Shown here: piece after piece, positions 19,386 to 63,527 of the stretch
Position numbering within the stretch: the stretch's first letter is position 1
Layout: each line of letters starts with the position of its first letter
Assembly: GCA_009838465.1 (NCBI GenBank)
Contig: VXRN01000045.1
Span: 1-64,000, forward strand
DNA: 64,000 nucleotides
Origin: Dehalococcoidia bacterium
Lineage (GTDB): Bacteria > Chloroflexota > Dehalococcoidia > Lucifugimonadales > UBA1123
Direction of reading: 5' to 3'
Position numbers and translations under genes: made by a program
Notes under the pieces: generated by a model
What the model saw: only the letters and a program-made list of their open reading frames with translations
What the model was told of the DNA's origin: nothing
Database searches by the model: none

Positions 19386-19590
19386 TATGCTACAATCTGG
19401 GCATGAAACCAGAACATATATATAAACTAGGTATTATACAAGGCCATTGAAAGTGCGGAAGTTTTTCTCACGTAGCTTTAACGCTGGGAAAACTCTGGGC
19501 AACTCTGGATAAAACTGACACCAGCTCGCTACCAGTGCCACCCTGCTAAACGCCCAGCGTCCACCCAGCGCATTATAAACCAGAATATAT
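19386..19590 (+). repeat. Phased-array element, copy A (205 bp)
   Basis: The element begins with TATGCTACAAT (19386-19396). After about 75 bp comes a left arm with CTGG at 19484, 19495 and 19505 and CTGA at 19515 (spacings 11, 10, 10). A right arm follows with CCAG at 19521, 19532, 19554 and 19565 and CCTG at 19542 (spacings 10-12). It ends with TATAAACCAGAATATAT (19574-19590). ACGCTGGG (19481) is also an exact inverted repeat of CCCAGCGT (19553). The outer parts match copy B at 63322-63527 base for base over long stretches, while the middle differs. It lies between divergent GMC and dehydratase genes. No known family is recognised. Confidence 0.8.
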
Positions 19591-19626
19591 CACACCTTCG
19601 ACATAACCCAGAACACGGAGCGACCA

Positions 19627-21645
19627 ATGACCACCACCCGCATCAGCCCCGACCACGACACGCGCGAACTGACCACCGACGACGTCTTGGGCGGAGGCGC
19701 TCCACAGATACTCACCCACGCAAGCGGCCCCGCCGGAACGCTTCCCTTCACTGAGGACTTCCTCGTCAATGGCGCGAGCGGCGACCACTTTGGCATGACC
19801 CAGAACGCCGGCATGGGCTGGAACCCGGTCGAGCTTCTCAGAAAGCAGTTCGTCATCCTCTCCACCGCCGGCGGGCTGCGTAACCCCGACGGCTCTCCCG
19901 TCGCCCTCGGACTCCACACCGGCCACTTCGAGCTTTCCACCATGGTTCAGGCCGCCGCCCTCGAACTGCGCGAGCAGGGCGCGATTCCCTTCGCCCTCTT
20001 CTGCTCCGACCCCTGCGACGGGCGCACCCAGGGAACGACCGGCATGCTCGACTCGCTGCCATATCGCAACGACGCCGCCCAGGTCTTCAGGCGACAGGCT
20101 CGTTCGCTGCCCACCTCGCGCGGCGTCATGGGCGTCGCGTCCTGCGACAAGGGCCTGCCAGCAATGATGATGGCCGTCGCCGGAATGCGCGACACGCCGG
20201 TAGTGGTCGTACCCGGCGGCGTCACCCTCGCCCCCGAACACGGCGAGGACACCGGGATGATCCAGTCCATCGGCGCGCGTTTCGCCCAGGGCGAGGTTAC
20301 CCTCGAATACGCTCAGGACGTCGGATGCCGCGCCTGCGCCTCCCCCGGCGGCGGATGCCAGTTCCTCGGCACCGCCGGCACATCGCAGGTCGTCGCAGAG
20401 AGCTTGGGACTCGCCATAACCCACGGCGCGCTATCGCCCTCCGGCACCGGAGCCTGGCTGGACATAGCGCGTCGCTCAGCCCGTGCGCTGGTTATGTCCG
20501 AAAAGCGCGGCGTAACTTCACATGACATATTGACGGACGCTGCGTTCCAGAACGCGATGGTCGTCCACGCCGCCTGCGGAGGCTCCACCAACCTGCTGCT
20601 CCACACCCCAGCCATAGCGCACGCCGCCGGACGCACCCGCATGGGGGTAGATGACTGGAACCGGATTAACAAGGAGACTCCCCGCATAGTGGACGTGCTG
20701 CCAAACGGCCCGACCGGATACCCCACTTCCGTCCTGTATGCGTCGGGTGGAGTGCCGGAGGTGATGCTCCACCTGCGCCGCATGGGACTCCTCGATACTT
20801 CCGTCCTCACCGTCACCGGCCAGACTCTCGAAGAAAATCTGGACTGGTGGGAGGACTCCGAGCGCCGACAGGATGTCCGTCACTACCTGCGAAACGAGAC
20901 CCGCGTTGACCCCGACAACGTGATTATGACGCCGGACAAAGCGAAGGCGAACGGACTGACCAGTACGGTCTGCTTCCCCGCCGGAAATCTCGCGCCCGAA
21001 GGTTCTGTAATCAAGAGCACTGCGATAGACCCGACCGTCGTTGACGAAGACGGCGTGTATCGCAACACAGGCCCCGCTAGGGTATTCCGCTCCGAGAGGG
21101 CCGCCATAACCGCCATCAAGAGCCGCGACGACGATGAGAAGATAAAGGCCGGCGACATCATGGTCCTAACCTGTGGCGGGCCCCTCGGCACCGGCATGGA
21201 AGAGGTCTATCAGATAACCGCCGCGCTCAAGCACCTGTCCTACGGCAAGAATGTCGCTCTCATCACCGACGCCCGCTTTTCCGGCGTCTCCACAGGCGCC
21301 TGCATCGGACACGTCGGCCCGGAAGCCCTAGCGGGCGGTCCAATAGGCAAGGTCAGGGAAGGCGACGTGATAGAAATCGTCGTGGACCGCAACACCCTGG
21401 AGGGCACAATCAACCTGGTCGGCCATGACGACAACAACCTTGGCTCAGACTGGGGAGTTGCCCAACTGGACTCCCGTCCGGACCCGGACGACCTGGAACC
21501 GCACCCCAGTCTGCCGGATGACTCCAGGCTCTGGGCGGCGCTTCAGCACGCTTCGGGTGGGACCTGGGGAGGCTGCGTCTTCGACGTCGACACCATCGTC
21601 GAGACCATCGAAGCCGGAATGAAAGCGCTCGGCAGAACGGAGTAG
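19627..21645 (+). CDS. YjhG/YagF-type D-xylonate dehydratase (IlvD/EDD family)
   Basis: The 672-residue protein belongs to the IlvD/EDD dehydratases with an iron-sulfur cluster and matches the longer YjhG/YagF branch (E. coli YjhG is about 655 residues). Cysteine motifs include PCDGRTQGT (Cys130), SCDKG (Cys173), a [11 protein letters not shown] insertion and ACGGSTN (Cys317). The predicted reaction removes water from a sugar acid such as D-xylonate, giving a 2-keto-3-deoxy acid, the second step of oxidative pentose breakdown. The ATG at 19627 has SD ACGGAG. No other pentose-pathway gene is adjacent except possibly the downstream CoA-transferase subunit. Confidence 0.9.
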
Positions 21646-32117: not shown

Positions 32118-34058
32118 CTATCTGCGGTCCAGCCAGACGTGGTCCCACTTGTTGGTTATGTAAACACCTCTGAACTCGGTGTTGTGAGGCATATAGCCCT
32201 TAACCTCGTCGTTGTACATATGGTAGGTGATTTCCCCTGTATCCCAGGGGACCATGATCATCTCCTGAGTGAGATAGTCCGACAGTTCCTTGGAGAGAGT
32301 CATCCGCCTGTCGGGATCGAACTCCAGTTCCAGCTCCCTTATCATCATGTCGAGCTTGGGGTCATTGTAGTTGAAGATGTTGGCATTGCATGGGCCGCCA
32401 CCGCACTGCCCGAACGCGTTCTTGATGTAGTATTCGGGAGTCGGCACCCTCATGCTCGAGTTGACCTCTGGGTATATGTCGAACCTGAGCCCTCTGACAT
32501 CGTCGCCAACCACGGAAACCTCGGCAAGCCTGATTTCAGAGTTTATGTTCAGGTGTTGCTTCAACCACGCCTGTTCCAGCACTAGGACGAGTTCCCACCA
32601 TGGACCGTCTGCCCTGCCGAGCAGGTCCAGCGTCGGTATTCCCTCTCCGTTTGGATAGCCTGCCTCCACCAGCAGCTGCTGGGCTTCGGCGATGTCCTCC
32701 GGCGTGGGGCTCCGCCAGTACTTTTCCTTCCTGAGTTGCTCGGTCGAGAGTGAATACACCCCCTGTCCTTCTCCGAACCAGCCTCCCGCGAACAGCAGTG
32801 CCTGTACCTGGCTGCCGGCCTCGATGAGCGCTTCCTGGTCGAAGACCAGCGCAACGGCCTTGCGAACCCGCACATCGTCGAATGGCGGCCTTGTCAGGTT
32901 AAGCGGAATCAGGTGGTATGTAGGCCGCAGGTGTATTGCCACCTTGAATTGCGGGTCTTCGAGAAGCGTCGGAACGTCGCCCGGCGGCACGAACATACTC
33001 CAGTCAACCCGGTTCGCTGCCAGCGCGGCCGTAATCTGCGGCGTCATTAGCGGAAGCCAGATGTGCTGTATCTTGTCTATGTACGGAGCGTTGGGGTTCC
33101 AGTAATTCGGATTGGCCTCCTGGACAACGTAGTCGTCCGTTCTCTCTACCGTGATGAACGGACCAGTGCCTGAGACCTCCGTTGGGTCGGCGTCCCTCAG
33201 ATTGCCATCGTATTGGTCCAGCACCGAAGCCTGGCTTATCTTGACGCCCTGCTCCGAAGCGCCCGCCATCACCCAGCCAACGCTGCGTGGCTCCTCCATA
33301 ACGAGCTCGACCGTGTAATCGTCTGGCGTATTTATCTCCGAAACCTTGGCAGTCTGGAATATCGCCTGGTAGGCGCTTCTCAGGCCAGTGGTCTCGAACC
33401 TGTCAGGGAATATGACCCGCTCAAGAGTCCTCTTAACGTCATTAGACGTCAGTTCCGCCCCATTGTGGAACTGTACGCCCTCACGCAGATTGAATGTGTA
33501 GGTGTCCAGATTGTCATTCGCGGACCAGCTATGGGCAAGGTCGGGAACTATCGTGACGTCCGGCGTTCGTGTGTCCTTCCGCAGAAGGTTGTCGTACATC
33601 GGCGTCATCCAACCATGCCATGTGATGGATCCTGAGACATAGAAATCGAAGTGGCCCGGCGGGCCGTTGTTCGACGTAATCAGCGTGCCGCCACGGTTCG
33701 CCATCGGGTCCAGCGTCGTCATGAAGAATCTCTGATCTGCCGGGCTGGGTGTGGCGATTAGGGTCTTTGTCCGTTCGACGACCTTTTCCACCTCGATGGG
33801 GACTTCCTTGACTACTTCCTTGACCACTTCCTTCTCGACGACGACGGTCTCGCCCGGCACCTGTACCTCTCTCACCACCTCCTTCTCGACCACGACGGTC
33901 TCGCCCGGCACCTGCACCTCTTTCACCACTTCCTTCTCGATGATGACTTCCGTAGGAACCTCCCTGACCACCTCCCTCGTACATGCCAGCGCCAGGAGCA
34001 AGACAAGAATCAGTCCGGCTATGGCTGGTAATCTGAAGTATCGCAAAGTTGCTAGCAT
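32118..34058 (-). CDS. ABC transporter solute-binding lipoprotein (SBP_bac_5) with repeat stalk
   Basis: The 646-residue protein starts with a lipoprotein signal (hydrophobic residues 11-25, lipobox LALAC, lipidated Cys26). Residues 27-96 are almost only V, E, K, P and Q and include two 17-residue units of the type VQVPGETVVVEKEVVRE, encoded by a 51-bp direct repeat near 33830-33931. This looks like a rigid stalk that holds the binding domain away from the membrane. The rest is a normal family 5 peptide/oligosaccharide-binding domain. The ATG at 34058 has SD AGGGGG. Its promoter is at 34163-34191. Confidence 0.93.
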   Translation of the reverse strand: MLATLRYFRLPAIAGLILVLLLALACTREVVREVPTEVIIEKEVVKEVQVPGETVVVEKEVVREVQVPGETVVVEKEVVKEVVKEVPIEVEKVVERTKTLIATPSPADQRFFMTTLDPMANRGGTLITSNNGPPGHFDFYVSGSITWHGWMTPMYDNLLRKDTRTPDVTIVPDLAHSWSANDNLDTYTFNLREGVQFHNGAELTSNDVKRTLERVIFPDRFETTGLRSAYQAIFQTAKVSEINTPDDYTVELVMEEPRSVGWVMAGASEQGVKISQASVLDQYDGNLRDADPTEVSGTGPFITVERTDDYVVQEANPNYWNPNAPYIDKIQHIWLPLMTPQITAALAANRVDWSMFVPPGDVPTLLEDPQFKVAIHLRPTYHLIPLNLTRPPFDDVRVRKAVALVFDQEALIEAGSQVQALLFAGGWFGEGQGVYSLSTEQLRKEKYWRSPTPEDIAEAQQLLVEAGYPNGEGIPTLDLLGRADGPWWELVLVLEQAWLKQHLNINSEIRLAEVSVVGDDVRGLRFDIYPEVNSSMRVPTPEYYIKNAFGQCGGGPCNANIFNYNDPKLDMMIRELELEFDPDRRMTLSKELSDYLTQEMIMVPWDTGEITYHMYNDEVKGYMPHNTEFRGVYITNKWDHVWLDRR

Positions 34059-34344: not shown

Positions 34345-34554
34345 TATGCTACAATCCATTCACCACAGAACAACAGTGCTTGCATATATAGCTGAACTTA
34401 TCAATCAATTCGGACCAACGCAAAAAAAGCGCTAAACAGGTGAATACAGGTATTTGCAGGTGGGATGCAGGTACCAGATCCTACCTGAAGGCCGTTTGCA
34501 GACCACCAGCAGACCACCTGTAGCTCTGCTGCACAACTATAAATCGCGATATAT
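34345..34554 (+). repeat. Phased-array element, copy C (210 bp, CAGGT type)
   Basis: It begins with TATGCTACAAT (34345-34355). The left arm has CAGG at 34437, 34447, 34457 and 34468 (spacings 10, 10, 11). The right arm has CCTG at 34484 and 34517 and CCAG at 34506, lying on an 11-bp grid. It ends with TATAAATCGCGATATAT (34538-34554), whose core ATCGCGAT is palindromic. Boundaries, length and layout equal those of copies A and B, but the repeated motif is CAGGT/ACCTG instead of CTGGG/CCCAG. Confidence 0.75.
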
Positions 34555-34578
34555 GCCATCATCAGGATAAGGAACAAC

Positions 34579-35133
34579 ATGAAGATATTGGGAATATGCG
34601 GAAGCCTTCGGAGAGAATCATGGAACCTCAAACTGCTGCGAAATATGCTGGACAAGACCGCCGACAAAGGCGTTGAGACCGCTCTCTTCGACTTGAATGG
34701 CGTCCCCATGTTCCACCCGGATGTCGAGGCGCAGGGCATTCCCGACGAAGCCGAAACTCTGCGCGACGCCGTCCGAGAAGCCGACGCTGTGATAATCGCG
34801 TGTCCCGAGTACAACGGCTCGATGACTGCGGCGCTCAAGAACGCCCTGGAATGGCTGTCCAGGCGCGGCAACTTGCTCAACGGCAAGATATTCTTCATCA
34901 TAGGCACAGGGCCGGGGCGTTCCGCCTGCGCCAGGATGCACGTACACGCCTCTTACAGCCTGGAGTCCGAGGGCGGTTACGTCCTGCACCAGCCGCGCGT
35001 CTTGCTTCCACAGGTCGCCAACTTCATGGACGAATCGGGCAGCATAACCGATCCTGAAGTAAGCGACCTGCTCGACCAGTCCGCGGCCACGCTGGTACGC
35101 TTCACTGAGAGCCTGGCGAATATGGACAGCTAA
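34579..35133 (+). CDS. NADPH-dependent FMN reductase family protein
   Basis: The 184-residue flavodoxin-like protein has the FMN phosphate loop GSLRRESWN near the N-terminus and the family motif PEYNGSMTAALKNALEWLSR. It reduces FMN, quinones or similar acceptors with NAD(P)H. The next gene, a luciferase-like monooxygenase 25 bp downstream, may use reduced FMN made by this enzyme, a known two-component pairing; this is inference. SD AAGGA precedes the ATG. Confidence 0.88.
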   Translation: MKILGICGSLRRESWNLKLLRNMLDKTADKGVETALFDLNGVPMFHPDVEAQGIPDEAETLRDAVREADAVIIACPEYNGSMTAALKNALEWLSRRGNLLNGKIFFIIGTGPGRSACARMHVHASYSLESEGGYVLHQPRVLLPQVANFMDESGSITDPEVSDLLDQSAATLVRFTESLANMDS

Positions 35134-62537: not shown

Positions 62538-63194
62538 TCAGAACTCCGCGCCTTCAGCTATGGCGTCGCGGGGGTCGCCTTCTATCATTTCGGGGCAGTC
62601 GGCCAGTGTGATGTCGCACATGCCACATTCGAGAGCGCTGGGGACCTTTCGCGCAGGTTCGGAGTCGGAGATGCGACGTATCAATCCGAATAGGTGGCTT
62701 CTGAAGGAATCGTCAATGGCCTCGAAGGGTATCTCGACCTCGCTGCCTTCCTTGTAAACCAGGCGTCCGTCGAATTCGACCCCCCTGAACTGGTTGACGT
62801 AGGGCAGGGCGTACATATAGATCATCACCTGAGCGTTGTCGGAGGCGCGGGGCTGACCGGTCTTGATGTCGTAGATAGTTCCGGTGGCGTCGTCGCGCAT
62901 GATCACGAGGTCGGGTTTTCCGCCAAGGACCGCGCCGGAGTTACCGCGCAGGTTGAAGTAGTTCTGGTCTTCGGACAGAACCCTGTTGCCGTCGAGTTCG
63001 AGGCCAGCCCTGACGTCGTTGAGTAGCGCGGTGTGGTTCATCTGCCAGGTTACTGCGTCGAACGGGCTGGGGGAGCGGTCGTAGTTCTTGTGGTGGGCCT
63101 TGAACCATGCGGCCCACTCGCAGGAGCGGTCGCCGACGAGGAGCTTGGACAGCCACGTTACCCAGATGTAGGGGCCCGATCTCGGTTCAGTCAT
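62538..63194 (-). CDS. Stand-alone Cas4/RecB-like PD-(D/E)XK nuclease
   Basis: The 218-residue protein has the Cas4/AddB-type layout: Cys25 (DRSCEWAAWF) and a C-terminal Cys190-Cys193-Cys200 (ECGMCDITLADC) that probably hold a 4Fe-4S cluster, and the nuclease core Asp95 (GKPD), Asp109-x-Lys111 (YDIKTG) and Gln122-x3-Tyr126. It should be a DNA exonuclease. There is no CRISPR array or other cas gene in the window. The ATG at 63194 has SD GGGAGGGG. The function could be DNA repair. Confidence 0.85.
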   Translation of the reverse strand: MTEPRSGPYIWVTWLSKLLVGDRSCEWAAWFKAHHKNYDRSPSPFDAVTWQMNHTALLNDVRAGLELDGNRVLSEDQNYFNLRGNSGAVLGGKPDLVIMRDDATGTIYDIKTGQPRASDNAQVMIYMYALPYVNQFRGVEFDGRLVYKEGSEVEIPFEAIDDSFRSHLFGLIRRISDSEPARKVPSALECGMCDITLADCPEMIEGDPRDAIAEGAEF

Positions 63195-63255: not shown

Positions 63256-63321
63256 GGGGAGCTTCTGAACCGGCAGGGCCATTTCAGGGTGGGCAGACGA
63301 TTGGGCGGTGAACTATAAATC

Positions 63322-63527
63322 ATATATTCCGGTTTATAAATGTGCTGGGAAGTGCTGGGCGCTAACTGGGAGGGTCACAGGGTTGGGCTGGGATGGTTTT
63401 CATCCAGCGTTGCCCAGAGTTTTCCCAGCGTTATAGCTACGGGAGAGAATCTCATGCAGCCTGCCTGCCTACCTCATAAATGACCGCTTATGTGTATGCC
63501 CTGAATTGATGTGGTCATTGTAGCATA
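63322..63527 (-). repeat. Phased-array element, copy B (206 bp, inverted)
   Basis: Read on the minus strand it starts with TATGCTACAAT (63527-63517) and ends with TATAAACCGGAATATAT (63338-63322). In plus coordinates CTGGG occurs at 63345, 63355, 63366 and 63388 and CAGGG at 63378; the opposite arm has CCAG at 63404, 63414 and 63425 (spacings 10-12). The outer parts are nearly identical to copy A, for example GCTGGGAAAACTCTGGGCAA, while the middle differs. Confidence 0.8.

Follow-up and report, generated by a model that had tools for sequence, protein, structure and literature searches.

BldC of Streptomyces, a single-domain winged helix-turn-helix protein, was shown to bind variable numbers of direct repeats in promoters, and its footprint consists of 5-bp tracts one helical turn apart that are occupied by cooperative head-to-tail filaments (PMC5859096). 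Direct repeats at one-turn intervals are also bound by Apl of phage 186 (PMC7498355) and by RdfS (PMC11963761), small winged helix-turn-helix recombination directionality factors that moreover regulate promoters. Finally, the BrickBuilt MITEs of Porphyromonas gingivalis carry tandem 23-nt repeats and bidirectional promoters (PMC4596501).

The array family described here, of which literature searches returned no description, shares traits with each of these systems. It has in common with BldC the direct repeats one helical turn apart, the gaps between sites being 10-12 bp across 147 arrays. However, the BldC site AATTNNNNC and repeat AATTNNNN(C) (PMC5859096) are not matched by the units, whose consensus is AACKCWGGKNA-like, and in place of one direct array there are two convergent blocks with flanking AT boxes, a partly mobile dispersal and a putative binder. 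The one-turn direct repeats likewise recall Apl and RdfS, and an excisionase-type HTH_17 protein is encoded in both array-bearing species and in neither array-free congener; the sites of Apl and RdfS are attachment sites and phage promoters, whereas the arrays stand at scores of host promoters. Like the BrickBuilt elements, the copies are dispersed, non-autonomous and intergenic, contain internal repeats and have predicted promoter activity, yet here the promoter is oriented and the repeats form inverted blocks of phased 5-bp sites that occur in two motif classes.

The window, i.e., the whole stretch of 64,000 nucleotides that was analysed, contains three copies named A, B and C, with the following features:

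34347-34359, + strand: copy C P1, extended -10 TGCTACAAT with the CAT start-site motif at 34357-34359 (from the sequence and the 113-copy consensus)
34383-34402, + strand: copy C left AT box, degenerate; its position fits the 152-154 bp box-to-box class
34437-34472, + strand: copy C, four forward CAGGT sites at 34437, 34447, 34457 and 34468
34473-34520, + strand: copy C, inverted ACCAG/ACCTG sites, with CCWG at 34474, 34484, 34506 and 34517
34538-34555, + strand: copy C right AT box TATAAATCGCGATATATG
34579-35133, + strand: gene behind copy C, NADPH-dependent FMN reductase family protein (FMN_red PF03358, E=1.6e-37)
19389-19396, + strand: copy A P1 -10 GCTACAAT (family consensus)
19421-19438, + strand: copy A left AT box TATAAACTAGGTATTATA, 153 bp to the right box
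19484-19568, + strand: copy A array, three forward CTGGG/A and five inverted CCAG/CCTG sites
19574-19591, + strand: copy A right AT box TATAAACCAGAATATATC
19627-21645, + strand: gene behind copy A, YjhG/YagF-type dehydratase (ILVD_EDD)
63517-63524, - strand: copy B P1 -10 GCTACAAT
63475-63492, - strand: copy B left AT box CATAAGCGGTCATTTATG, 154 bp to the right box
63345-63428, - strand: copy B array, CTGGG-class sites
63321-63338, - strand: copy B right AT box TATAAACCGGAATATATG
62538-63194, - strand: gene behind copy B, PD-(D/E)XK nuclease-like protein

Copies A and B are built from CTGGG/CCCAG units in the same layout as copy C. Chains of three CWGG spaced 10-11 bp apart number six in the window, every one of them within copies A, B and C (null mean 0.9, maximum 4); the sole chain of four belongs to copy C (null mean 0.03). 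The positions that a first-pass annotation had given for copy C proved exact on recheck and its listed sites are correct, with the CCAG at 34474 overlooked. Copies A and B, to which it had ascribed long identical flanks, share about 77% identity over 134 bp. It had also described boundaries and spacing as the same in all copies; the spacing is indeed equal in helical phase, whereas copy C has one extra forward unit compared to A and B, its array starting at -101 relative to the right AT box and theirs at -90. Apart from a tRNA gene cut by the left edge (positions 1-62; RF00005), an Rfam scan of the window returned no family at gathering score. Three 51-bp direct repeats at 33813-33965 lie within a reading frame on the - strand (32118-34058), in which they represent a repeated protein segment.

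Further copies were gathered by genome searches and from the sequence stretches around the matches, the genome being queried with the window copies, with two sequence-only profiles (R1 and R2) and with a right-box pattern. This yielded, as a lower bound, 147 distinct arrays in which a right box was recognised, 86 in the window's genome (G000) and 61 in one congener (G002, the MAG CATOSI01 of an uncultured Dehalococcoidia); these copies are related by descent and hence are not independent observations. The right-box pattern matched 83 times in G000, 91 times in G002 and never in the two further congeners G001 and G003, the reversed-pattern controls giving 9, 3, 2 and 0 matches. Arrays were absent from G001, G003 and 246 more genomes of the order (profile R2: zero in these 248), profile R1 found nothing in the other relatives searched, and a contig scan matched the congener G002 only. 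In G000, several arrays lie at contig ends (C63:44, C32:12, C43:1, C31:95789 and C55:56337), suggesting that assembly may break at these repeats and that the copy number is underestimated. Scans of IMG/VR for the array types were empty except for one viral contig (IMGVR_UViG_3300009149_001477; L230, 5880-5930), in which TTATCCACA DnaA-box-like repeats at 11-bp spacing grade into GGTGATTAACA repeats; they resemble the D-type unit and are probably unrelated to it.

From 5' to 3' the copies consist of P1, the left AT box, an A-rich stretch with TAGCTAAC, three or four forward CWGGK sites, four or five inverted sites, the right AT box and the gene. P1 has the consensus TGCTAcAAT with a conserved CAT downstream and no clear -35 consensus, based on 113 copies that match TGCTACAAT at 7 or more of its 8 positions, a score of 7 or 8 being reached by about 8% of shuffled windows. 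The right AT box has the consensus TATAAAN5ATATATG, and the left AT box is palindromic and similar to it. Across the 147 arrays the forward sites peak at -90/-79/-69/-58 and the inverted sites at -53/-43/-32/-20/-10 from the right box. Moreover, the distance between the two boxes falls into classes near 131, 142, 153 and 164 bp (Rayleigh R 0.77 versus a null maximum of 0.30), and this quantisation persists in a set of 34 copies whose mutual identity is below 60% (R 0.72 versus a null maximum of 0.59). P1 lies in the same helical phase as the left box, and orthologous copies differ in their box-to-box distance mostly by 0, about 10-12 or 22-23 bp, with few exceptions. The idea that gaps compensate each other between orthologues was dropped, as the equal totals arose from aligning windows of fixed length, and the comparison was made on the box distances themselves. 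Quantisation by one turn over 130-165 bp would be expected for proteins assembling on one face of B-DNA and not for an RNA stem; site spacing and box quantisation indicate a protein array that acts at the DNA level on one face.

Copies A, B and C are best read, with somewhat better than even confidence, as dispersed regulatory promoter cassettes whose built-in P1 is controlled by a putative, cooperatively binding protein and which would spread partly in a MITE-like manner, with their classes swapped in place. What the sequences show is the layout with its helical quantisation, the two exchangeable motif classes, the orientation toward a downstream gene, the constraint on site cores and boxes between species, the class switches at orthologues and the mobile-element ends of some copies. 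P1, with its extended -10 and CAT start, would be the cassette's own promoter, and the roughly eight C(A/T)GG(G/T) half-sites, a forward followed by an inverted block, would lie on one helix face between the AT boxes. We infer that the putative protein recognises the individual sites in double-stranded DNA and forms oligomers along the phased array, whose occupancy would control transcription from P1, in the simplest case as a repressor or regulated block that acts early in the transcribed region. CWGGT and CWGGG may be read by two related proteins or by two versions of one protein. Copies would spread partly as MITE-like insertions, and arrays that are replaceable in place would allow the motif to change while the layout stays.

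Clustering of the genome-wide copies by arm motif, a check suggested by the first-pass annotation, separated two classes of the fifth motif base on a constant layout. This base is near all-or-none per copy, i.e., CWGGT or CWGGG with few copies mixed, with 73 copies having T at every or nearly every site and 52 having G at all or most of them (variance 0.213 versus a shuffled maximum of 0.055), and the bimodality persists in the 34 copies less than 60% mutually identical. Both classes are present in both genomes on the same layouts. The second base is a mixture of A and T within most copies in three of the four genome-class groups, whereas the CWGGG group of G002 is mostly CAGGG (mixed in 6 of 24). 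Furthermore, the class is switched at 6 of the 22 orthologous genes that have arrays in both species. At the orthologues L078/L181 seven of seven arms are CWGGT in one species and the other has a G-class array; the identical box distances and the agreement of the gene-proximal sequence suggest replacement in place. At L072/L123 the G002 copy bears the ends of a mobile element and appears to have inserted separately. The proposal that the motif changes while the layout stays is thus borne out. That different binding proteins are involved is largely supported, the switches being consistent with different specificities of a binder that is itself putative. The fifth base shifts in all arms together and the second base on single arms. 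Motif type does not obviously track the neighbouring genes, which are diverse.

The downstream gene is co-oriented with the cassette at 131 of the 147 arrays, an orientation taken from simple ORF calling in which individual calls may be wrong. Flanking gene pairs run in the same direction in 66 versus 11 cases and are divergent in 60 versus convergent in 4. The downstream genes, identified by Pfam or by reading sequences, include recA, nusA, tyrS, leuS, lexA, ligA and many unrelated enzymes, for which reason a regulon of one pathway was dropped. Among 13 orthologous pairs, recA included, between-species identity is 0.89 in the C-GG core, 0.93 in the right box and 0.85 in the P1 -10, compared to 0.75 in array spacers and 0.71 elsewhere upstream (p values of 1e-7 for the site core, 8e-8 for the right box and 0.005 for the P1 -10). 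At recA the cassette lies at the same place in both array species, upstream of TTTACA-N17-TATACT, which looks like the native promoter, and the cassette may hence act as an additional input rather than as the promoter; recA of the other two congeners has no cassette copy. An array at the gene behind copy C is present in the window's genome only, the orthologue in the other species being without one.

That the right box is the best conserved part, that most right boxes lie 15-200 bp ahead of the gene and that the inverted sites sit where a -35 would be are also consistent with a different arrangement, in which an activator-dependent promoter has its -10 in the right AT box and its upstream activating region in the array, TGCTACAAT being then a secondary promoter or another kind of site. 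However, the similar palindromic AT box to the left of the array suggests a protein site rather than a -10, and TGCTACAAT with its CAT resembles a standard extended -10 promoter and is likewise constrained, making this arrangement a rather doubtful, if serious, alternative to control of P1.

The cassettes might also be an inert MITE family that does the host no service, the layout and classes going back to few progenitors or the sites serving transposition only. MITE-like ends CAGGGCCTTTGCAAAGTC gave 39 matches versus 0 for the reversed control, and both inverted-repeat ends (at most 5 mismatches) are found in 17 of the 147 copies. Some copies of the A, D and G classes have clear ends, and C-type copies, including copy C, have no such pair. 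Several of the 17 two-ended copies are flanked by 9-bp target duplications and others are not. Elements with both ends measure about 283-345 bp and contain no transposase gene, and with 147 dispersed copies the family has in this respect the make-up of MITEs; no autonomous copy was seen among paired CAGGGCCTTTGCAAAGTC ends. Two array-free elements of about 120-150 bp, L041 and L050 (G000 C23 and C22), have CAGGGCCTTTGCAAAGTC ends and 9-bp target duplications (CTCTTTAGC; GAGGTCTCG) and are apparently plain MITEs with the same ends as the array copies. An in-frame reading through the right inverted repeat of the element into the start of the downstream gene (ADFAKAL) is possible at L080 (G000 C9), in this case ahead of an HTH_31-TPR protein, suggesting that insertions may add N-terminal extensions. 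The ends and duplications on a subset of copies, the shared ends of the short elements and the confinement to two species are what an inert family would show. However, recognisable ends are missing from most copies, orientation toward genes is strong, orthologous copies are constrained in their site cores and boxes and helical quantisation is kept among very divergent copies, so that inertness appears unlikely.

The first-pass annotation had also considered compensating changes in an RNA stem. In such a leader the forward and inverted arms of a P1 transcript would pair as a nested stem and so control expression. The arms do form inverted repeats and lie 3' of a P1-like promoter, the fifth base changes jointly in all of them and the folds of single copies are better than those of shuffled sequences (z -1.4 to -3.7, which is explicable by the inverted repeats alone), but a leader of this kind, while possible, is improbable, since the second base of facing arms does not correlate above shuffled in the C1 layout and is at most marginal, with few slot pairs, in the D layout (in a test that took in layouts of 61 and 19 copies), orthologous arms change on one side only (L076/L187), the covariation term of the consensus fold is unfavourable for the C-type (+0.63) and nil for the D layout (-0.01), leaving no covarying stems as in a structured leader or riboswitch, inverted sites outnumber forward ones and the 11-bp quantisation concerns distances to AT boxes outside the stems. 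A second-base correlation in the A layout was set aside as a mixing of two subfamilies.

For the regulated cassette, a candidate binder is the HTH_17 protein, which has 84 aa, is found in G000 and G002 (73% identity) and is absent from G001 and G003, with weak, partial matches elsewhere. Its gene adjoins an integrase gene in G002, and it may simply be the excisionase of that element. Its candidacy comes from co-occurrence in four genomes, and the parallel with BldC makes it worth testing.

As a tentative reading, held with less than even confidence, the family represents lineage-specific global regulation, in which a mobile, phased operator cassette stands before scores of unrelated genes, including housekeeping genes, and two filament-forming proteins that co-exist would read two mutually exclusive specificities, which replace each other at the same promoter. 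If true, the dispersal of a cassette inside one genus would have given these genomes a global architecture of promoters, with sites that are fixed in helical phase and a specificity that is free to change. Orthologous promoters that differ in class would then be a natural experiment on regulator-site switching with the assembly geometry kept, and the cassette sequence would offer a clear handle for finding the binding protein.
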